From: Natrinema sp. SYSU A 869
GTDB lineage: Archaea; Halobacteriota; Halobacteria; Halobacteriales; Natrialbaceae
Reading direction: 5' to 3'
Assembly (NCBI RefSeq): GCF_019879105.1
Contig: NZ_CP082249.1
Span: forward strand, 3,782,001-3,846,000
Length of the DNA stretch: 64,000 nt
Positions 6,238 to 24,718 of this stretch are shown piece after piece (positions within the stretch are counted from its first letter, which is position 1; each line of letters begins with the position of its first letter). The translations under genes were made by a program, and so were the position numbers. Under the pieces are notes generated by a model. It had not been told where the DNA came from and searched no databases. It saw only the letters and a program-made list of their open reading frames with translations.

Positions 6238-7014
6238 TCAGTCGTCGTCTCTCCATCGGTCGTCCCCGCGCTCCGTTTGCGTTCCGTCATCCGTCGCTCC
6301 CCACGACGGCTGCTCACGACGGTCGGTTTCGCCGGCGTCCGTCTCGGAGTGGGGCCGGTTCTCGAGGTAGACACGAGCATACGCGAGTTGGACGATCGGA
6401 CTGCCGATCGCGGTCAGGACAACCGTGGCGGCGAAGTACGTGAGAGAGAACCCCTCGTTGAGATCGGTAACGCTGAGATCGGTCGCGACGAACGCCACGA
6501 CCATTCCGCCGAGGAAAACGAACAGCCACGTGAGGGAGATGCCGACCAGTTTCGCGAGGTTTCCATCGGCGACAGTCCAACTCGTCTTGAGGCTCTCGAC
6601 CGCGTCCTGGTCGTCGATGACGCATGCGGGGAACGCGAGCGAGAGTCGAACGGCGAGATAGAGTCCCGGAAGCACGAAGAAGATCAGTCCGGCGGCGACG
6701 GCCAGAACGTAGACGACCGTCGCACCGAACAGCGATAAGTACCGCTGGCGGACGGTAGTCGATGCTCGAGCGATATCACTCGACGCTCCGCGCGCTTCCT
6801 GCTCGCCGATCACATGAGCGAGACCGTCGACGTATATTACGGCAAGGAAGGCAGCGACGGCGAAGAGCAACCCGAGGGTGCCGGGACTGTTACTGAACGC
6901 CTCCAGAAGCCCGTACAGGAGGAAGATAACGATCAAAACCGGATTTCGTCGGAGCCACTCGGTCGCCGCGACGAGGGTTCCGATTGACCCTTTTCGTCGG
7001 AGATGTTGTTCCAT
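6238..7014 (-). CDS. Multi-pass membrane protein (GDPD membrane-domain / DUF7847-like)
   Basis: A 258-residue protein with about five to six hydrophobic segments between residues 25 and 220 and a polar, Asp/Glu/Arg-rich tail. The region around LSLAFPACVIDDQDAVESLKTSW resembles the repeated motif of membrane domains related to glycerophosphodiester phosphodiesterase accessory regions. No catalytic residues are seen. The start at 7014 follows a TATA-like TTTTATATT on the minus strand (about 7038-7050). Function is unknown. Confidence 0.65.
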   Translation of the reverse strand: MEQHLRRKGSIGTLVAATEWLRRNPVLIVIFLLYGLLEAFSNSPGTLGLLFAVAAFLAVIYVDGLAHVIGEQEARGASSDIARASTTVRQRYLSLFGATVVYVLAVAAGLIFFVLPGLYLAVRLSLAFPACVIDDQDAVESLKTSWTVADGNLAKLVGISLTWLFVFLGGMVVAFVATDLSVTDLNEGFSLTYFAATVVLTAIGSPIVQLAYARVYLENRPHSETDAGETDRREQPSWGATDDGTQTERGDDRWRDDD

Positions 7015-7089
7015 ACAACATATTGAAGAAATATAGGCAATATAAAATACCCGTCTCAAAGATGGATACGGCGCTTCCGTCGCGGCGGG

Positions 7090-8313
7090 CTATCGGAGGC
7101 AGGCCGCTACGACCTCGAGCATGTCCTCGCCGCGGACCTCCTCGGCAAACAGCGGTACTCGACGGACGTCGGTACCGCGGAAGAGGTCCTGTGCCTCGGC
7201 CAGCGCACCCTGCTGGACGTCCCAGCGGCGCTGACAGAACTCGCAGTCCTCGAGATTTGGCTGCAGGAACTGCCCGTCGACGTCGTCGGTGACGTTTGAC
7301 AGTGGCTCCATCACGCGGTTGACGACAACGGTCCCGACGGGGATTTCGAACTCTCGAAGCTGCTGGCGCAGCCGCTTTGATTCGAAGACGCTCATCTCTT
7401 CGGGGACCATGACGATCCGGAAGTCCGTCCGCGCTGGATCACGCAGCGCGGCTCGCAAGCGCTCGATGCGCTCGCGCAGTTCCTCTAAGTCCTCGAGATC
7501 GCTGTCGTCGGTGCCTTCGTCACCGCCGAACATCCCCTTGACGCCGTCGAGCATCCCACTGATGCGCTGGCGGAATTTCATTAGTCGGCCCATCATCGTG
7601 TCCATAATTTCGGGGAGCTGTAGCAATCGAAGCGTGTGGCCCGTCGGAGCCGTGTCGACGATCACACGCTCGAAGCGCTCGTCGTCCATGTACTCGAGCA
7701 GGAGTTGCATCGCGGCGGCCTCGTCGGCTCCGGGCATCGCACCGCCGAAGAGGGCGTCCATTGGTGAGTCGCCGCCGAGCATGTCACCCAGGCCGCCGAG
7801 GGGGCCGCCCTCGGCACCCTCGCCACCGGGGAATGGGGACCCGCCGCCCTCACCGCCGGGGAAGGGCGATTCCCCATCTTCCCCCGCGCCCGGACCGCCG
7901 AAGGGGGTCTCTCCCGCTTCGATCGCGGCCTCGGGATCGATCTCGGCCGCGTAGAGGGGGATATCGTCCCGGATCCGGCCGGGTTCGGCCGGGATATCGG
8001 TCTCGAATGTGTCCGAGAGCGAGTGGGCCGGGTCGGTCGAAACGACCAGCGTTCGGGTACCGCCTCGGGCGCTGTCGAGGGCGGTCGCGGCCGCCATCGT
8101 CGTCTTTCCGACGCCGCCTTTCCCGCCGTAGAGGACGTAGTCGGGGCCGTCGATCGGCTCGTCCGACGGCTCGACGTCGATGGTCTCGCGCTCGTCCGTC
8201 GCCGCGTCGTCGACGGAGTCCGTCGGCGTTACCTCGATCGTGTGTGCGTCGTCGCTATCCCTGCTCGTCGTCTCGTCTTCCTCGTCGACCGGCTCGACGT
8301 CGATGCCGCTCAT
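7090..8313 (-). CDS. Get3/ArsA-family ATPase (TRC40-like)
   Basis: Deviant P-loop ATPase of the ArsA/Get3 family, involved in tail-anchored protein targeting or anion transport. From the ATG at 8313 the protein has an acidic leader of about 60 residues, then the P-loop GGKGGVGKTT, the switch I region STDPAHSLSD, the A-loop/switch II region VIVDTAPTGHTLRLL, and a C-terminal CEFCQRR Cys-x2-Cys pair that can bind zinc at the dimer interface. A Gly/Pro-rich low-complexity insertion (repeats of PFPGGEGGGS type) lies in the middle. A longer frame reaches 8466 (GTG at 8361 possible) and would overlap the aminotransferase gene. No arsenic genes are nearby, which favours a Get3-like role. Confidence 0.85.
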   Translation of the reverse strand: MSGIDVEPVDEEDETTSRDSDDAHTIEVTPTDSVDDAATDERETIDVEPSDEPIDGPDYVLYGGKGGVGKTTMAAATALDSARGGTRTLVVSTDPAHSLSDTFETDIPAEPGRIRDDIPLYAAEIDPEAAIEAGETPFGGPGAGEDGESPFPGGEGGGSPFPGGEGAEGGPLGGLGDMLGGDSPMDALFGGAMPGADEAAAMQLLLEYMDDERFERVIVDTAPTGHTLRLLQLPEIMDTMMGRLMKFRQRISGMLDGVKGMFGGDEGTDDSDLEDLEELRERIERLRAALRDPARTDFRIVMVPEEMSVFESKRLRQQLREFEIPVGTVVVNRVMEPLSNVTDDVDGQFLQPNLEDCEFCQRRWDVQQGALAEAQDLFRGTDVRRVPLFAEEVRGEDMLEVVAACLR

Positions 8314-8393
8314 ACGCGCCGGTTCCCCGTCCAGACACGAGTATTCGTCGGTCTCGGTTACCGGGCACAACGGACCCCTGTCGATCTCGCCGC

Positions 8394-9494
8394 TCACCCG
8401 AAATATGCCGCCAACCGTTGGGCTGCCTCTTCGACGCGCGGCGTGACGAGAGCGAATCGCAGCCATTCCGTCCGCGAACTTCCGAAGGCCTCGCCGGGCA
8501 TGCCGGCCACGCCGGCCTCGTCGATCAGCCGCTCGACGTTCTCGAGCGTCCCCGGATAGCCGTCGAAGTGCGCCATCACGTAGAACGAGCCGTCCGGGCG
8601 CGTGTACTCCGCTCCGGCGGCGTCGAGCGCAGCGGTGAACGTCTCGACGCGCTCGCGGAGGCGGTCACGATTGCGCTCGTTGTAGTCTGGGCCCGTCTCG
8701 CGCAACGCTTTCAGAACCGCGTACTGGCCGGGGCGAGTGGTGGCGACGTTGACCAGCATGTGGCGGCTCTTAGCGTCGTCGACGAGTTCTGGCGGGAAAA
8801 TCGCATATCCCACGCGAACGCCGGTGATCGCCATCGACTTCGAAAAGCCGTTGGTGACGATCCGGTGGGCGGAGTCGGTCTCGAGCGCGCTCGCGAACTC
8901 CCCCGAGAGGTCATAGTGGTCGTACACCTCATCGCTGATCAGGACGGCGTCGTATTCCTCGGTAATGTTGATTAGTTCCCGCATCGTCTCAGCGGGGTAG
9001 ACCGCGCCCATCGGATTGTTCGGCGTATTCACGACGATCGCGGCCGTCTCCTCGCTCGCGGCCGCGCGGACGTCATCGGGGTCCAGTTGCCCCTCGTCGT
9101 CCGTCGGGACGTACGATTGGGTCCCCTCGAGCATCGTTGTCTTTCCCGGGTAGTAGGGATAAACTGGATCAGTCAGCAGGATTTCGTCGCCGCTCTCGCG
9201 TTCGAGGGCCCGCGCCATCGCGAGGTAGTTCGCCTCGCCGGTCCCGTTCGTGACGACGATCTGACCGACGTCGACGCCTCGACGTGCAGCGATCTCCTCG
9301 CGCAACTCGAGTACGCCCTCACTGGGCGGGTATTGGAACCGATCTGGCTCGAGGTCGGCGTACTCCCGCAGGCCCTCGCGGAGCGCCTCGGGGGGCTCCC
9401 AGTCGGGGTTCCCACTGACCATGTCGATGACATCGCGGTCCGCCGCGTCCGCGTACTCCATCACGCGGAAGAACAGCGGCGTCTCGTAGTTCAT
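8394..9494 (-). CDS. PLP-dependent aminotransferase, class I/II
   Basis: A 366-residue fold-type I aminotransferase. Recognisable features are the NTPNNPMG cofactor-binding motif, the SDEVYDHY segment, the PLP-lysine motif NGFSKSMAITGVRVGY and the late conserved Arg in TEWLRFALV. The start MNYETPLFF at 9494 matches family N-termini. The frame stays open upstream, but that part reads through a degenerate repeat (9535-9571) and looks non-coding. Substrate (aspartate, alanine or aromatic) cannot be told. Confidence 0.88.
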   Translation of the reverse strand: MNYETPLFFRVMEYADAADRDVIDMVSGNPDWEPPEALREGLREYADLEPDRFQYPPSEGVLELREEIAARRGVDVGQIVVTNGTGEANYLAMARALERESGDEILLTDPVYPYYPGKTTMLEGTQSYVPTDDEGQLDPDDVRAAASEETAAIVVNTPNNPMGAVYPAETMRELINITEEYDAVLISDEVYDHYDLSGEFASALETDSAHRIVTNGFSKSMAITGVRVGYAIFPPELVDDAKSRHMLVNVATTRPGQYAVLKALRETGPDYNERNRDRLRERVETFTAALDAAGAEYTRPDGSFYVMAHFDGYPGTLENVERLIDEAGVAGMPGEAFGSSRTEWLRFALVTPRVEEAAQRLAAYFG

Positions 9495-9534
9495 GCGCGA
9501 GGTATGCGTCGTCGATCTCTTCGGTCTTCCTATC

Positions 9535-9571
9535 CCGATCGGCGTGTGAATTGTTTCAGTTGTTACTATAG
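9535..9571. repeat. Half copy of the 86-bp palindromic element
   Basis: Bases 9544-9571 match one end of the full elements at 48539-48624 and 60566-60651, with 24 of 28 positions identical by hand count to the 60.6-kb copy. Similarity fades inward to about 9535. The other half is absent. It sits about 40 nt upstream of the aminotransferase start. Confidence 0.65.
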
Positions 9572-9628
9572 GACTTCGAGCGTTCGAAAACGATGCAGTT
9601 TGATTCGGATCGCAGTCCGCGATCCTCG

Positions 9629-11080
9629 TTAGACGCGGTCCGAGATGCGGTCGATCGCGGCCGGCGCGTCGATGCGGCCGGTTCCGAGCCCCGACGTGTA
9701 CTCGCCGGAGAGGTCGACCGCGCTCTCCGTGATCGCCTGTTCGACGCGGCGCGGATGCAGATCGGGAGCGAGTTCGCGGAGTAGACACGCCAGACCGGCG
9801 ACCTGTGGTGCGGCCATCGACGTCCCCGAGAAGTATTCGTACTGTCTACCGTAGATTTCTTCGGGCACCGACGACAGAACGTAGTTCGTCGGAGCGGGAT
9901 ACTCGACGCGCGCCGGCTCTTCGCTCATGGTCTTGTCGAGCGTCTCGTAGCCGCCGCCGGGCGCGGCAACGTCGATCGTTCCGTCGCCGTAATTGGAGTA
10001 GTGGCTCCGCTTGTCTGTCGGGCCAGTCGCCGCGACGGTGATCGCATCGGGGATACCGGCCGGGAGGAAGTATCTCGAGTCGTGATCGAGGTCGACCATC
10101 TCGTTACCGGCCGCGGCCACGACCACGGTTCCCTGCTCAATCGCATGACTGGCTATCCGTCGAAACGCTGCGAACGACCGGCTGTCGCCGGGCCAGACCT
10201 TCCGGAGACTGAGATTGATTACATCGACGCCAATTTCGACCGCGTAGTCGATCGCGAGGAGCATGTCGGCGATCGTCGTGACCAGAACGCCGTATTCCTC
10301 GTCGATGTCGGACAGTTCGTCGTACACGTCGGTAGCGTCCTTATAGAACGCTGGGCGAAGCGGGACGATCGTCGCATCGGGTGCCATACCGACGATCCCG
10401 GCGTCATTACGCGGTGCAGCCGCGATCCCAGCGACGTGAGATCCGTGCCCGTATACGTCGGCGGCGACGGGTCGGGTTGCCGTCTTCGTCGGCTGGAGGA
10501 GCAGACTCGATTCTTCGGCGACGGTAACCTCTCCGACGCCCGTGTGAACGTGTCCGTTGCGAAAGAGACGACCGCGGTCGGCGTCGAGTCGCGGTTCAAG
10601 GTCCGGATGGGAGTGACTGACACCGGAGTCGATGACGGCGAGCGTCGCCCCCTCGCCGGTCGCGCGATCATGGGCCGCTTGCGCGCGTGTGAGTTGCTTG
10701 TCCCACTGGTCTTCGTACAGCGGTTCCGGTTCATCGCCGGATTCCCCGTCGGTCGCGGCAGCTTCCATCGTGTCGAGGACGAACGTTTCGTTCGGCACGA
10801 GTTCAATCGCGACCGCCGCCGCCCGAAGTTCCGCTGCCTTCTCGGCGGCACCCTGAACGATGAAGATCGATCCGTCGGCGAGTTCGTTCAGGATTTCGAA
10901 CCCGGCGCGTTCGATCCGACCGCGGAGTTCGGAATCGCCTGCCAAGACGACATAGACCTCCTGGTCGGCTGGCACCGACCGGTCGCCCGCGCTCACAGCG
11001 CCGACACTACCCAGTACGATACCGCCTTCCACGACTCGTTTCAGTACCGATCGCCTCGATCGTCCGCCTAACTGATTCAT
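9629..11080 (-). CDS. Tat-exported subtilisin-like serine protease (halolysin-type)
   Basis: S8-family peptidase of 483 residues from the ATG at 11080. The N-terminus has a twin-arginine signal (SRRSVLKR followed by a hydrophobic stretch to about residue 31). An I9-like propeptide (about 40-105) and the catalytic domain follow. The triad is visible as D151 (AVIDSGVSHSHP), H212 (YGHGSHVAGIAA) and S421 (FSGTSMAAPQVAG), with oxyanion Asn at about N326 (AAAGNE). The protein ends with the catalytic domain and has no C-terminal extension of the kind halolysins carry. A TATA-like TTTTATATT lies at about 11110-11120 on the minus strand. Expected to act outside the cell. Confidence 0.92.
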   Translation of the reverse strand: MNQLGGRSRRSVLKRVVEGGIVLGSVGAVSAGDRSVPADQEVYVVLAGDSELRGRIERAGFEILNELADGSIFIVQGAAEKAAELRAAAVAIELVPNETFVLDTMEAAATDGESGDEPEPLYEDQWDKQLTRAQAAHDRATGEGATLAVIDSGVSHSHPDLEPRLDADRGRLFRNGHVHTGVGEVTVAEESSLLLQPTKTATRPVAADVYGHGSHVAGIAAAPRNDAGIVGMAPDATIVPLRPAFYKDATDVYDELSDIDEEYGVLVTTIADMLLAIDYAVEIGVDVINLSLRKVWPGDSRSFAAFRRIASHAIEQGTVVVAAAGNEMVDLDHDSRYFLPAGIPDAITVAATGPTDKRSHYSNYGDGTIDVAAPGGGYETLDKTMSEEPARVEYPAPTNYVLSSVPEEIYGRQYEYFSGTSMAAPQVAGLACLLRELAPDLHPRRVEQAITESAVDLSGEYTSGLGTGRIDAPAAIDRISDRV

Positions 11081-11241
11081 TTTCCAACAGGTGTGGCCAC
11101 GTCGCTTCAATATAAAAGATTAATAATTCAACTATTTTCCGGACCATATCAATCGAGAGATCGTCTCCTTTCGATGGCGACCCGATTCTCGGATGCCGGT
11201 CGTCCATCGGTTTGACAACCCATCGGGGCGTTGCTCGAGCC

Positions 11242-11754
11242 ATGAACGACGACATCGATCGCAACCTGCCGATGGACGTCGCCGACGCACTGCGTGACGC
11301 CGAGGAGACCCTGGCCGTCGCCGAATCCTGTACTGGCGGGCTGATCGGCGCGGCAATCACTGCCGTCCCGGGTGCGAGTGATTACTTCGATTCGGGCCTG
11401 ACAACCTACGCCTACGATGCCAAGCGCCGCCACCTCGGTGTCAGTCGCGAGGCACTCGACGAGCACGGTGCGGTCTCCGAACCGGTCGCCCGCGAGATGG
11501 CACGGGGAGTTAGAGACGTCTCGGACGTGACGTGGGGCGTCTCGGCGACCGGGATCGCCGGTCCCACTGGCGGAACCGACGTGAACCCGGTCGGGACCGT
11601 CTACATCGGAGTTTCCTACGGGGCCCCATGGGGCAGCGAAGGGTCGTATGCGACTGTCTCCCGCTACGTCTTCGACGGCGACCGTGCGGCTGTTCGCGCG
11701 AAGACCGTCGAGTGGGCCCTCGAGGATCTGCTCGCCGAGATCGAGGCGCGGTGA
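11242..11754 (+). CDS. CinA C-terminal family amidohydrolase (nicotinamide-nucleotide amidase-like)
   Basis: A 170-residue stand-alone CinA C-terminal domain (PncC type), which converts NMN to nicotinate mononucleotide in pyridine nucleotide recycling. The family motifs AESCTGGLIGAAIT and SATGIAGPTGGT are intact. I chose the ATG at 11242 (MNDDIDRN) over the one at 11212 because it begins the typical halophilic sequence. The N-terminal CinA domain is not present in this window. Confidence 0.88.
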   Translation: MNDDIDRNLPMDVADALRDAEETLAVAESCTGGLIGAAITAVPGASDYFDSGLTTYAYDAKRRHLGVSREALDEHGAVSEPVAREMARGVRDVSDVTWGVSATGIAGPTGGTDVNPVGTVYIGVSYGAPWGSEGSYATVSRYVFDGDRAAVRAKTVEWALEDLLAEIEAR

Positions 11755-11832
11755 GTCCGGTCGAGATAAGCCCAAACGGCCGACACTCTCGAGAGAAAAC
11801 TATTCCGTCGTCGACTCCCCAGATGGGGCTAG

Positions 11833-12318
11833 ATGAACAAGAAGGGGCACGTGCTGAATGCCGTCTTATTGAGTATTGGACTTGGGTATCTACTCGAGCC
11901 AGCAGGCGATTTGGAGACGTTCAGAACGATCGCCATGATCGGTGTACCGGTTTCGCTCGGCGCACTGTTTCCGGACGTCGACACCGCCTTCGGCAAGCAC
12001 CGGAAGACGTTGCATAACCTGCCGATTCTGGTCGGCTTTCTCGCCTTTCCGTACGTGTTCAATAACCTCGAGTACGTCTGGATCGGCGTGTTGACCCATT
12101 ACGTCCTCGATATCGCAGGGAGCAAGCGCGGAATCGCGCTGTTCTATCCTGTTTGGAAGGAGGAGTTCGGACTCCCAATCGGCGTCGCGGTCAGCAGCGA
12201 GCGCGCCGATCTGATGATGATGGTAGTCACCGTCGCCGAACTCCTCCTCGTCGCGCTGATCGTCTTCGAGATTCCGCAGTGGGGCTTCGAGATAGGACGG
12301 CGGGCACTCGGGATCTAG
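11833..12318 (+). CDS. YdjM/DUF457-type membrane-bound putative metal-dependent hydrolase
   Basis: A 161-residue membrane protein with an N-terminal GHVLNAVLLS segment, an acidic LFPDVDTAFGKHRKTLHN motif and a later THYVLDIAGS. The His and Asp residues of these motifs form the putative metal site of the YdjM/LexA-regulated membrane hydrolase family. Three to four helices are visible. Biochemical function is unknown for the family. Confidence 0.75.
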   Translation: MNKKGHVLNAVLLSIGLGYLLEPAGDLETFRTIAMIGVPVSLGALFPDVDTAFGKHRKTLHNLPILVGFLAFPYVFNNLEYVWIGVLTHYVLDIAGSKRGIALFYPVWKEEFGLPIGVAVSSERADLMMMVVTVAELLLVALIVFEIPQWGFEIGRRALGI

Positions 12319-12391
12319 CTCGGCCGCCGCGGACGAACCGTCACCGTCAGTCTCGCAACGCGCCTCGAGCGGGACCGACATGACGTGATCG

Positions 12392-12661
12392 TCAGGTGTC
12401 GCCGCCAGCGGTGATCGACAGCTCGTTTCCGTTGATCTCGACTCGATAGTTGTCGACGGAAAACGCGATTTCGGGATGTGTCCCGGTGGTGACGACCGTG
12501 TCGAGCGCCTCTGGATTGATGTGCTCGTACATGGTCGTCCCGAGTGCCGTCGACAGATCGGTCGGCTCGACATCTTCGATGCCGGCGATGGCGTTGACGA
12601 CAGCAACGGTTGGCGTCGTACTCGACCAGGTGTATCGACCGGAGAACAGTTCTTCTGCCAT
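12392..12661 (-). CDS. HalOD1 output-domain protein
   Basis: An 89-residue protein (from ATG 12661) that reads as a single HalOD1 domain: VAVVNAIAGIEDVEPTDLST, then LGTTMYEHINPEALDTV and the terminal beta strands FSVDNYRVEINGNELSI. HalOD1 is a halophile-specific presumed output domain that often stands alone. No sensor or regulator gene is adjacent. Start at 12691 is possible. Confidence 0.85.
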   Translation of the reverse strand: MAEELFSGRYTWSSTTPTVAVVNAIAGIEDVEPTDLSTALGTTMYEHINPEALDTVVTTGTHPEIAFSVDNYRVEINGNELSITAGGDT

Positions 12662-12835
12662 GATTCGTCGTTCTATCCGACGGGGCGTCATCCTCCCACT
12701 TAGCTATAGTGTGACTAGACGGCTACAACCGATGGTTGTGTGGTCCGGCCACGCGGCGGGATACTCCCGTCTCGAGCGGTTCTAGAAGCGGAGACTAGCA
12801 AGGAGCCGTAAACGACGGAGAACGAGATGGAGATC

Positions 12836-13843
12836 CTATTCCCGATTCGGTGTCCACTCCTCGCAGGCGTCCATGTCGTCCATGGCCGTTTCGTGGCGGG
12901 CGCAGTAGGGGACCATCCCCTCTGAGGAGCGGACGTACTCGAAATGCGTACAATTTCCACAGTAGCGGTCCGTCGGCTCGTCGGGCGTCTCGGTCGACGA
13001 CTCGACGATTTCCGCGTCGTGGCCATCGCCCGATTCGAGCGGCGAGGTGATGTCCCTCGTCGCGGACCCGCCGTCACTGGTCGCGGCGCCAGCGGTCCGA
13101 CCGAGACTCGATCCAGTTCCGGTGTCGCTGCCACTCCGCGAGGACGCGGCCGACCGCTGCGAGGGTCGGCTATTCACCCCGTCACCATCGTACGAAAGCG
13201 ACGTGCCGCCGTTCGTGTCGTCCTCAGCGTCCGCGTTGGTCTGCGTTTCGACATCGCCGTCCGGCGTGCCCCCGAGAAAGCCGATGCCGCCCAGCCCGCC
13301 CGCATCGCTCGAGTCGTCGACTTCGAGGACGGTCTTGTTGTGGCGAGTAACGTTCATCTCGAGGTTACCGCCGGGATCGTTTCGCTGCTTGAACGTGGCG
13401 ACGGCGCTGAACAGACACCAGATTGCGGGCAAGAGTCCGAGCAGGTAGATTGCGGAGACCTCGAGCGTGAGTTGGTCGCTGCCGTAGCGCCAGTGTTCGG
13501 GGTAGGCGTGCCAGAAGAGCACGACGCCCAGTAGGCAGAGGCTCGCGCTGATCGCGGCCGCCGCCTGAACGCGACGGCTGGCTGGCAACACGACGAAGAC
13601 GCCGACGAGGACGATGGGAACGCTGAACCCGACCAACATGCCCGCGGCCCGGACGGTCGCGAACTGGGCGGACATGCCCCCCGAGAGCTCGACGGCGTAC
13701 CCGCCGAAGAGGTCAGTCGTCGCCACGAGTACGGCCACGACGGCCATGAATGCACCGAGCAACACGAGCGCCGTCCCCGCGTACAGTCGGCGACTCGTCA
13801 CCCCCGGTGCAGTCCCATCGTAGGCCTCCGTCAGGCTTGTCAT
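12836..13843 (-). CDS. Membrane protein with C-terminal zinc-ribbon-like segment (DUF7139-like)
   Basis: A 335-residue haloarchaeal protein. Four hydrophobic helices lie between about residues 20 and 150, then VTRHNKTVLEVDD and a long Ser/Gly/Asp-rich disordered linker. A C-terminal Cys cluster (CGNCTHF, then PYCARHE and CEEW) can bind zinc. The architecture matches proteins annotated DUF7139. Function unknown. Confidence 0.65.
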   Translation of the reverse strand: MTSLTEAYDGTAPGVTSRRLYAGTALVLLGAFMAVVAVLVATTDLFGGYAVELSGGMSAQFATVRAAGMLVGFSVPIVLVGVFVVLPASRRVQAAAAISASLCLLGVVLFWHAYPEHWRYGSDQLTLEVSAIYLLGLLPAIWCLFSAVATFKQRNDPGGNLEMNVTRHNKTVLEVDDSSDAGGLGGIGFLGGTPDGDVETQTNADAEDDTNGGTSLSYDGDGVNSRPSQRSAASSRSGSDTGTGSSLGRTAGAATSDGGSATRDITSPLESGDGHDAEIVESSTETPDEPTDRYCGNCTHFEYVRSSEGMVPYCARHETAMDDMDACEEWTPNRE

Positions 13844-19977: not shown

Positions 19978-21378
19978 CTACGCCCGGAACTGGCGGTCGG
20001 CCGACTCGTCTCCCACGTCGACGTTCGTCACCTCGAACCGCGCACCGCCGTCAGTCCCGTCGGTAATGGAAATCTCCCAGTCGTGTCCGTCGATGATGTC
20101 CGTGACGATACGCAGGCCGAATCCGGTTCCGCGCTCGTTCGTGGAGTAACCGCTCTCGAAAACCGTGTCGCGTTCGGCCAGCGGAATTCCCGGCCCGTCG
20201 TCCTCGACGTAGAAGCCGTCCGGTAACGCGCCGACGGTCACTGTCACGGTCGAGTCGCCGTGTTCGACAGCGTTTCGGAACAGGTTCTCGAACAGTTGTG
20301 CGAGTCGGCTCTCGTCCCCCTGAACGGTAAGATCGTCGTCCAGACGGAGGGTTGCGGCTCCCGTCTCCACGTTCTGCCAGCATCGGTTAGCCAGGCTCGA
20401 GACGGAAACCGAGTCGATATCGCGGACGCCCTGGCCGTTCCGAGCGAGCGATAGCATGTCCTCCAGAAGTTCCGCCATCCGATCGAGCGACTCCATCGCG
20501 ATTTCGACGTGGTCGCTATCGGACTCCGCCGCAGCCAGTTCGAGGTGGCCGGTCGCCACGTTGAGCGGGTTCCGCAGGTCATGACTGACGAGACTGGCGA
20601 ACTCCTCGAGAGAGTCGTTCTGTCGTTGGAGCAGGCGTTCGCGTTCGACGCGATCGGTGATGTCTCGAAATACCCACAGCCGTCCGTAGTACGTCCCGTT
20701 GCCGGTGATGGCTGTCGAATAGCGGTCGAACACTCGTCCGTCTTCGAATTCGATCTCGTCCCGCGACGTTTCGGAGGGATGGTCATACAGGTATTCGACC
20801 CGCTCTCGGAACTCGTCGGGGTATTTCACTTGTTCTACGACCCGCTGGAAGACCGGCGTATCATCTCCGCTCTCGACGAGAGCAGTCGAGATGGAACCAA
20901 TTTCGGCGAATCGATCGTTGTACGTGACGATATCTCGGTTCTCGTCAACGACGAGGATCCCGTCGATAGTAGCCTCTTGTTGGGATTTTAGTACCGAGCG
21001 CTGGTACTCGAGTGCCTCCTCTCGTTGTTTTCGGTCGGTAATATCCTGAATCGTCCCATAGTGATATACCGTCCCGTCGATCTCGTTGCACGTCGTGACG
21101 ACCATAACCGGCGTCGATGTCCCCTCGACCTCGTGGCGCGTCTCGGCGACTCTCGTTTCACCGATCTCGAAGGAGTGCCAGTAGTCGTCGAATCGGTCTC
21201 GATCCAACTCCGGGTTAATCGTCCAGATCGGTCGTTCCTCGAGGGCGTCTCGAGTCGTCTCGAGGAGGGCCGCGTAGGCAGGATTGACGTATCTATACGT
21301 GCCATCGGAGCCGTAGACCGCGACTCCGGTGCCGACGGTTTCAACGATTTGTTCGAAGAAGTCGCCTGACGACTGCAT
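19978..21378 (-). CDS. PAS-domain sensor histidine kinase (orphan)
   Basis: A 466-residue soluble kinase without membrane helices. Two PAS domains are seen at about residues 8-115 and 125-240, each ending with a DITDR motif. HisKA follows with the phospho-acceptor H266 (SLVSHDLRNPLN). HATPase_c has the N box (NLFRNAVEHGD, about 366-374), G1 box DDGPGIP (393-399) and G2 box GTGFGL (417-422). No response regulator is adjacent, which is common for haloarchaeal kinases. Confidence 0.92.
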   Translation of the reverse strand: MQSSGDFFEQIVETVGTGVAVYGSDGTYRYVNPAYAALLETTRDALEERPIWTINPELDRDRFDDYWHSFEIGETRVAETRHEVEGTSTPVMVVTTCNEIDGTVYHYGTIQDITDRKQREEALEYQRSVLKSQQEATIDGILVVDENRDIVTYNDRFAEIGSISTALVESGDDTPVFQRVVEQVKYPDEFRERVEYLYDHPSETSRDEIEFEDGRVFDRYSTAITGNGTYYGRLWVFRDITDRVERERLLQRQNDSLEEFASLVSHDLRNPLNVATGHLELAAAESDSDHVEIAMESLDRMAELLEDMLSLARNGQGVRDIDSVSVSSLANRCWQNVETGAATLRLDDDLTVQGDESRLAQLFENLFRNAVEHGDSTVTVTVGALPDGFYVEDDGPGIPLAERDTVFESGYSTNERGTGFGLRIVTDIIDGHDWEISITDGTDGGARFEVTNVDVGDESADRQFRA

Positions 21379-23579: not shown

Positions 23580-23722
23580 ACTCGAGTTGTTCACGCTCCT
23601 CACAAAAGGAGTATTCGTCCGGTTTCGTTCCGGTTATCTTCGATATCTACGTCTACACCGTTTACTGGTTTAGTATGTTGGGCTGACAAAAACCTTTTAC
23701 TTTCCAGTCCGAACTATAGGTA

Positions 23723-24718
23723 ATGAATACGGAGTCGAAGTACCCTACTCTCGAAGTCGAGACGGACCCGTTTTCGAATGCACCGCGGCGGACGCTCTCG
23801 GAGACAGTTCGGCCGCTCGCCGACGCGTACGACGAACGGATTGCGGACAGGGACCGATCGACGTGGCGGTGGTTCGACACGGTCGAACCCGAATTCCGAC
23901 TGTCGTGTGTGGATGACGAGTACGGACGGCGCGTTCGCGACGCGAAAGTGCTTGCCACGATGTTTATCACTGTCATTGACGACGTCGCCGAACGCCACGG
24001 CGATCGGGCGACCCTCAAGGAACTGCTGTTGGTCCCGTTCGATTCCCGACCTGCCGATCCGACTCGAAAGGGCGTCGACGGGACGTACGTTCGATTCCAG
24101 CAGGAACTCTGGGACGCGCTGCTGGAGTGTTACGCGGCGAGTCCACGCGCAGACGAGTTCGCGGACCTGTTCCGGTTCGATGTCCGGCAGGCACTGCAGT
24201 CGGTCGACTACTCGGCACTGCTGGCCCAGTATCCCGGCCTCGCGGGCGAACGCGAGCTCCGGACGTATGACGTCTACAACATGATGCTCTTTCCGTTCGC
24301 TGATATCGACTTCGCCAACGCCCTCGCGTTCGAGCCCCGGGAGCTCTCGACCGTTCGGGACGTCGTCGCTCACGGCCAGCGAATGGCGCGTATCGGCAAC
24401 TGGATCGCCACTTGGGAGCGGGAACTCGCCGAAGGCGATTACAGTTCGGGCGTCGTGATTCGTGCCCTCGAGTCGGAGGTCGTTTCCCACAAGGAGCTCC
24501 GAGCGATCCGAACGGCGACGACCGACGCGACCGTCGACCCGGTGGTCGACCGGATTCGCGATTCCGGAATCGAAGCCGAGTTCGTCGACCGGTGGTGTCG
24601 CGAGTACGAGGCGGCCACCGAGTACTGTGACGAGATTGAGTCCATCGACGTCCGCGCCTACCTCGAGGGGTTCGAGCCGATCTTCCGCTCGCAACTCGCG
24701 CGGCGACCGTCGGCGTAA
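23723..24718 (+). CDS. Putative class I terpene synthase-like enzyme
   Basis: A 331-residue, largely helical protein. It has an Asp-rich motif DDVAE (residues 86-90, DDxxE type) at the end of a hydrophobic helix (ATMFITVIDD). An NSE/NTE-type triad N226-x3-T230-x3-E234 (NWIATWERE) lies about 140 residues later, the order and spacing of class I terpene synthases. An Arg (R180) lies exactly 46 residues before N226, the position of the pyrophosphate-sensor Arg. It would ionise a prenyl diphosphate using Mg2+. A TATA-like AACCTTTTAC (23691-23700) precedes a leaderless ATG. No prenyltransferase or P450 gene is beside it, so the product is unknown. Assignment is by motifs only. Confidence 0.68.
   Translation: MNTESKYPTLEVETDPFSNAPRRTLSETVRPLADAYDERIADRDRSTWRWFDTVEPEFRLSCVDDEYGRRVRDAKVLATMFITVIDDVAERHGDRATLKELLLVPFDSRPADPTRKGVDGTYVRFQQELWDALLECYAASPRADEFADLFRFDVRQALQSVDYSALLAQYPGLAGERELRTYDVYNMMLFPFADIDFANALAFEPRELSTVRDVVAHGQRMARIGNWIATWERELAEGDYSSGVVIRALESEVVSHKELRAIRTATTDATVDPVVDRIRDSGIEAEFVDRWCREYEAATEYCDEIESIDVRAYLEGFEPIFRSQLARRPSA

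Follow-up and report, generated by a model that had tools for sequence, protein, structure and literature searches.

Archaea are isoprenoid-based, yet are hardly known as makers of cyclic terpenes, and a single gene of the haloarchaeon Natrinema sp. SYSU A 869 raises the question of whether it encodes an enzyme of this kind, a class I terpene synthase. The gene lies at 23723-24718 (+) of the window, by which we mean the whole stretch of 64,000 nucleotides of contig NZ_CP082249.1 that was analysed. Its ORF begins with ATG, has no internal stops and specifies 331 aa followed by a stop codon; the codon-position GC is consistent with a genuine gene, and dN/dS relative to six relatives is approximately 0.14-0.25. 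The gene is thus real and under purifying selection, and its description as class I terpene synthase-like draws on a match to PF19086, an AlphaFold model and a fold search as well as on dN/dS. There is one copy in the genome (5.67 Mb, three contigs searched), and the closest named relatives are Natrinema, Haloterrigena salina and Natronorubrum texcoconense. The preliminary description regarded the gene as standing alone with its own promoter, and this agrees with what we find: the flanking genes are both on the opposite strand, and a TATA-like box, CCTTTTA (23693-23699, +), is situated 24-30 bases 5' of the ATG, with an AT-rich box at a roughly equal distance from the ATG in relatives. The spacing of the box suggests a leaderless or short-leader transcript.

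The case for a class I enzyme began with three short motifs, a DDxxE, an N-x3-T-x3-E and an Arg 46 residues before the Asn. The putative aspartate-rich Mg-binding motif is present as DDVAE at residues 86-90 (23978-23992, +), and the putative Mg-binding motif of the NSE/DTE type is present at residues 226-234 (24398-24424, +), where the sequence N226-W-I-A-T230-W-E-R233-E234 provides the predicted ligands N226, T230 and E234. Conservation was evaluated in a set of 72 sequences, comprising haloarchaeal relatives at 25-90% identity. D87 is present in all 72 and D86 in 68 (N in the other 4), every sequence has E or D at position 90, and the second motif has N, S/T and E in 72/72, with either T or S at position 230. 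The invariant residues include N226, W227, W231, R233, E234, D239 and R223 in and around the second motif, together with D87, R43, W48, W50, D196 and R212. The three motifs occur jointly in 0.23% of 200,000 shuffled sequences with this protein's composition, a frequency that is non-negligible genome-wide, and the pattern taken alone would therefore be suggestive but short of proof; the DDxxE and N/T/E motifs are not a matter of chance, however, because they are kept in all close relatives and nearly all of the distant ones. DDxxD/E occurs once in the protein and the second motif is NxxxTxxxE, so that the FARM and SARM pair of polyprenyl diphosphate synthases is not found, and a Pfam search with the protein gives no match to PF00348.

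Family profiles and structural comparison both point towards terpene synthases. The protein matches PF19086 (Terpene_syn_C_2) with 26.8 bits (gathering cut-off 23.7; E 5.2e-6), residues 80-250 aligning with positions 4-177 of the 199-position profile, and 53 of the 72 relatives match it at E<=0.01. Matches to TetR and further weak Pfam matches fell below the cut-off and were set aside, and there is no NCBIfam match. A sequence search of solved structures with the protein gave marginal matches, all of them terpene synthases, and in the alignment with aristolochene synthase DDLLE is opposite DDVAE and NDIYSYEKE opposite residues 226-234, with Arg180 matched by an Arg in the same helix region. 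The AlphaFold (AF2) model, built from the 72 sequences, has a pLDDT of 93.4 and a pTM of 0.91. Comparison of this model with known folds, which had been proposed as a check, gave the predicted alpha-helical terpenoid fold, terpene synthases being matched over residues 1-330 by both Foldseek and VIA-align. The first nine Foldseek matches are all terpene synthases, VenA and T-muurolol synthase ranking at the top and the others being hydropyrene synthase and 10-epi-cubebol synthase. Nearly all of the 50 matches listed by VIA-align are likewise terpene synthases, at Z scores of 19.6-21.7; they include bornyl diphosphate synthase (Z 21.7, 286 residues aligned, 3.4 A rmsd), taxadiene synthase (Z 21.6, 264 aligned, 3.0 A), T-muurolol synthase (Z 20.8, 269 aligned, 3.2 A) and LrdC (Z 20.8, 266 aligned, 3.2 A), with identities to solved terpene synthases in the structural alignments of only ~7-18%. 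In the model DDVAE is at the C-terminal end of helix 65-91, the 226-234 motif is on helix 205-236, and Arg180 is at the end of a helix (176-181), just before a break. This arrangement of motifs on helices is that expected for class I terpene synthases, and the DDVAE and 226-234 motifs probably face one cavity, for which the helix positions and the alignment with aristolochene synthase give indirect support.

The third motif has fared less well. Arg180 (24260-24262, +), at the position of the pyrophosphate-sensor Arg, does lie exactly 46 residues before N226, but it is not a feature of the family: among the 72 sequences position 180 is R in only 14 and W in 23, with L, Q, E or other residues in the remainder, and those with R are scattered on the family tree. 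Because the position is occupied by W, L or Q even in proteins 76-82% identical, we have dropped Arg180 as independent evidence for a class I enzyme. We also compared the protein with published lists of type I features (PMC8450962; PMC5082573). It has the aspartate-rich motif, the three NSE metal ligands and the NSE K/R, and matches the consensus ND(L,I,V)xSxx(K,R)E (PMC8450962) at every position but the second, where Asp is replaced by Trp in 72/72. It is without the Pro 21 residues before the DDxxD motif, the residue following the NSE triad is Ser rather than Asn, and the C-terminal RY dimer, a common though variable feature, appears incomplete, with R322-S323 at what is probably the equivalent of R-Y in a subset of relatives. 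Such departures are compatible with activity, since the active sesterterpene synthase SmTS1 has NQ in its NSE motif, thus lacking the NSE Asp, and Gly at the sensor-Arg position (PMC8450962); RF replaces the RY dimer in one characterised synthase (PMC5082573). The family resembles bacterial and fungal class I synthases such as those for T-muurolol, selinadiene, epi-isozizaene and aristolochene (PF19086) in its full-length, alpha-only fold of about 330 aa, with DDxxD/E near residue 90, N-x3-S/T-x3-E near 230 and K/R before the Glu. Identity to these enzymes is about 10-17%, and the invariant Trp in place of the NSE Asp and the variable sensor Arg, together with the incomplete RY dimer and the Ser for Asn after the NSE motif in this protein, set the family apart as a divergent subfamily.

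The immediate surroundings of the gene indicate a simple history. Upstream and divergent is a gene for a metallo-beta-lactamase-fold hydrolase (PF00753; 22869-23603, -), which is a neighbour in 23 loci, and downstream and convergent is one for a Cys/Met metabolism PLP enzyme (PF01053; 24780-26033, -), also in conserved synteny. In three congeners lacking the synthase these two genes adjoin one another, approximately 90-100 bases apart as against 1.18 kb here, and we therefore conclude that a single gene has been gained or lost. The hydrolase gene is present in 9/9 congeners without the synthase, and we regard its position as conserved synteny and do not propose it as a pathway partner. Membership of an operon or gene cluster was considered for this genome and rejected, as the conserved neighbours occur also without the synthase, and so was a mobile or viral gene: a search of viral contigs with the family profile found no relatives, and the congener site is one of simple presence or absence with no mobile gene seen. 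There are no tailoring enzymes adjoining the synthase gene, and the P450 genes of this genome are located away from it.

The family is widespread, and most of it lacks annotation. Within the taxonomic family of the host, a single-sequence search found the synthase in 51 of 125 genomes, and a profile search found it in 121 of 391 Halobacteria-class genomes, representing 39 of 86 genera. A wider family profile reaches other families of the phylum, with matches in 39 of 393 genomes at E<=1e-4; PF19086 was discarded as a census tool, as it recovers only 5/393 at E<=1e-5. Several of the matched genomes outside the Halobacteria carry mcrA and are thus methanogens (G720 among them), including Methanosarcina-like organisms. 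In their more distantly related proteins the motifs read D-D-x-x-D and N-x3-T-W-x-(R/K)-E. No Pfam family matches the Methanosarcina-type protein, yet its model (pLDDT 89.1, pTM 0.89) matches Sat1646 with a Z score of 23.6 (257 aligned, 2.7 A) as well as many other terpene synthases. In phylum members that are neither methanogens nor Halobacteria one homologue is incomplete and one is degenerate, the latter (L160:9501-10268, -, in the non-methanogen genome G502) having lost both metal motifs. Six homologues on haloarchaeal plasmids each bear the annotation 'hypothetical protein'. No bacterial relatives were found in a single genome-contig scan, the peptide patterns of which reach close relatives only.

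Taken together, the predicted fold and the motifs make it probable that the product is a class I terpene synthase with a single (alpha) domain, from a divergent subfamily of archaeal enzymes. In the predicted reaction D86/D87/E90 and N226/T230/E234 would hold Mg ions, which would grip the diphosphate group of a linear prenyl substrate and trigger its departure; the hydrophobic helical barrel would guide the resulting carbocation to a terpene that is cyclic or rearranged in some other way. The substrate would most likely be C20 GGPP or C15 FPP, or possibly C25 GFPP, drawn from the haloarchaeal pools of prenyl diphosphates for lipids, carotenoids and quinones; matches to polyprenyl synthases point to prenyl-diphosphate-synthase genes in three or four regions of the genome. 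Catalysis itself, the length of the substrate, the cyclic nature of the product and a role as a dispensable specialised metabolite are what we infer from these comparisons, and the presence or absence of the gene among congeners and its patchy spread would suit an enzyme of specialised metabolism.

Against a terpene synthase count the low identity to solved enzymes, the non-conserved sensor Arg, the changes in the NSE motif and RY dimer, the Ser for Asn after the NSE triad, and the lack of adjoining tailoring enzymes. The class I fold is also common to prenyltransferases, given that the matches listed by VIA-align for the model also include GGPP synthase (Z 19.8), the prenyltransferase DabA (Z 20.0) and the prenyltransferase domain of a copalyl-diphosphate synthase. 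An enzyme that ionises a prenyl diphosphate with both motifs and transfers the prenyl group to an acceptor in the manner of DabA, with no cyclisation, could also explain the altered pyrophosphate-binding residues if these reflect a different second substrate. We nevertheless consider this unlikely, since chain-elongating prenyltransferases have a second DDxxD where this protein has a motif of the NSE type, no acceptor-pathway gene recurs beside the homologues, and prenyltransferases do not figure in the first nine Foldseek matches. Similarly improbable, in our estimation, is a class I lyase that forms a linear product of the isoprene, linalool or farnesene type, or that uses a pre-cyclised diphosphate as does Sat1646. 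The matches of the model to isoprene synthase (Z 20.8) and Sat1646 (Z 20.5) are in its favour, as is the finding that the pimarane-type diterpene synthases Sat1646 (E 0.059) and Stt4548 (E 0.56), neither significant alone, are the only solved chains picked up by the family profile; both share with the family the pattern R-(I/L)-x-N ... RE...GD around the motif, but retain the NSE Asp (NDLAS and NDVAS) where the 72 sequences have Trp. Sat1646 and Stt4548 act downstream of a class II enzyme, whereas no match to SQHop_cyclase_N is found in this genome; this leaves no obvious source of copalyl diphosphate, led us to reject partnership with a class II cyclase, and favours a linear substrate over a pre-cyclised one.

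The genes beside the homologues raise a further alternative. In other haloarchaea genes for PAS, histidine kinase or Bat proteins occupy 12 of 80 immediate-neighbour positions as against 12 of 490 positions at least three genes away, a seven-fold enrichment (odds ratio; Fisher p 1.8e-5, in lineages that are not independent). By Pfam, 11 of 73 immediate neighbours have a PAS domain and 7 of 73 BAT/HTH_10, and among 73 distant control genes no PAS family has two members. A gene for a PAS-PAS-HisKA_2 histidine kinase is directly upstream on the same strand in 6/6 Methanosarcina-type loci. This enrichment and the methanogen kinase are what would be expected of a non-catalytic or signalling protein of the terpenoid fold acting as a partner of PAS/Bat sensors, but that is the least likely of the rival readings, and we think it very improbable. 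Metal-binding residues, needless for a non-enzyme, are kept across the 25-90% range of identity and in methanogens, the neighbours in this clade are metabolic, and regulators adjoining biosynthetic genes are ordinary.

A Mg-dependent class I terpene synthase remains the reading that we prefer, and the new elements are the subfamily itself, how widely it occurs and its regulatory surroundings. The preliminary description held that archaeal terpene cyclases are very rarely characterised; this stands in so far as we found no characterised archaeal or haloarchaeal terpene synthase in the open literature, but has to be qualified, as the family is widespread and, to judge from its title, a dedicated preprint of 2024-25 (Samusevich et al., bioRxiv 10.1101/2024.01.29.577750; cited in PMC12797696) deals with archaeal terpene synthases in terpenoid biosynthesis. 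Archaeal terpene synthases as such would appear from that title to be known already, and the topic is what the preprint visibly shares with this analysis. 'Terpene' clusters have also been reported for haloarchaeal genomes, in a study that did not demonstrate class I synthases (PMC8600319). New relative to the literature that can be checked are how widely the family occurs, its presence in methanogens, the combination of an invariant NSE Trp and a sensor Arg that varies, and the frequent proximity of PAS/Bat genes. It is tempting, albeit speculative and rather doubtful, to see here a phylum-wide archaeal branch of class I terpene synthases, shared by haloarchaea and Methanosarcina-like methanogens, that binds pyrophosphate in a way of its own (with Trp in place of the NSE Asp and no fixed sensor Arg) and is switched by PAS/GAF/Bat regulators to make an archaeal terpenoid for the response to light, oxygen or redox state. 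With members in about one-third of the Halobacteria-class genomes sampled, and in methanogens too, the family would point to a terpenoid metabolism that has been overlooked. It supplies salt-adapted enzymes for assay, its natural variation is a test of which pyrophosphate-binding residues an enzyme can do without, and genetic tests may be possible in tractable organisms, Natrinema and Methanosarcina among them.

Several further features of the loci deserve mention. PAS/GAF/Bat-HTH_10 or PAS-kinase genes adjoin 12 haloarchaeal homologues (L088, L089, L092, L094, L095, L096, L102, L105-L108 and L112; about 6500-13600 in each), and the methanogen kinase is at L161:10670-12211 (-), with equivalents in L162-L166. 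In the window itself there is a PAS-domain sensor gene at 19978-21378 (-), 2.3 kb from the synthase, in a position that is not conserved among relatives. A wHTH regulator adjoins the homologue, mostly on the same strand, in L053, L054, L057, L086, L087, L101 and L108, that of L101 having HVO_A0261_N and FilR1_middle domains. Cytochrome P450-type genes, possibly for tailoring enzymes, lie within approximately 2.5 kb of four homologues (L046:7097-8458, L102:11992-13662, L116:7392-8747 and L117:11658-12929). Finally, some haloarchaeal genomes, such as G214 and G273, contain three divergent paralogues (L119, L120 and L124; L099-L101), which hints at several products.
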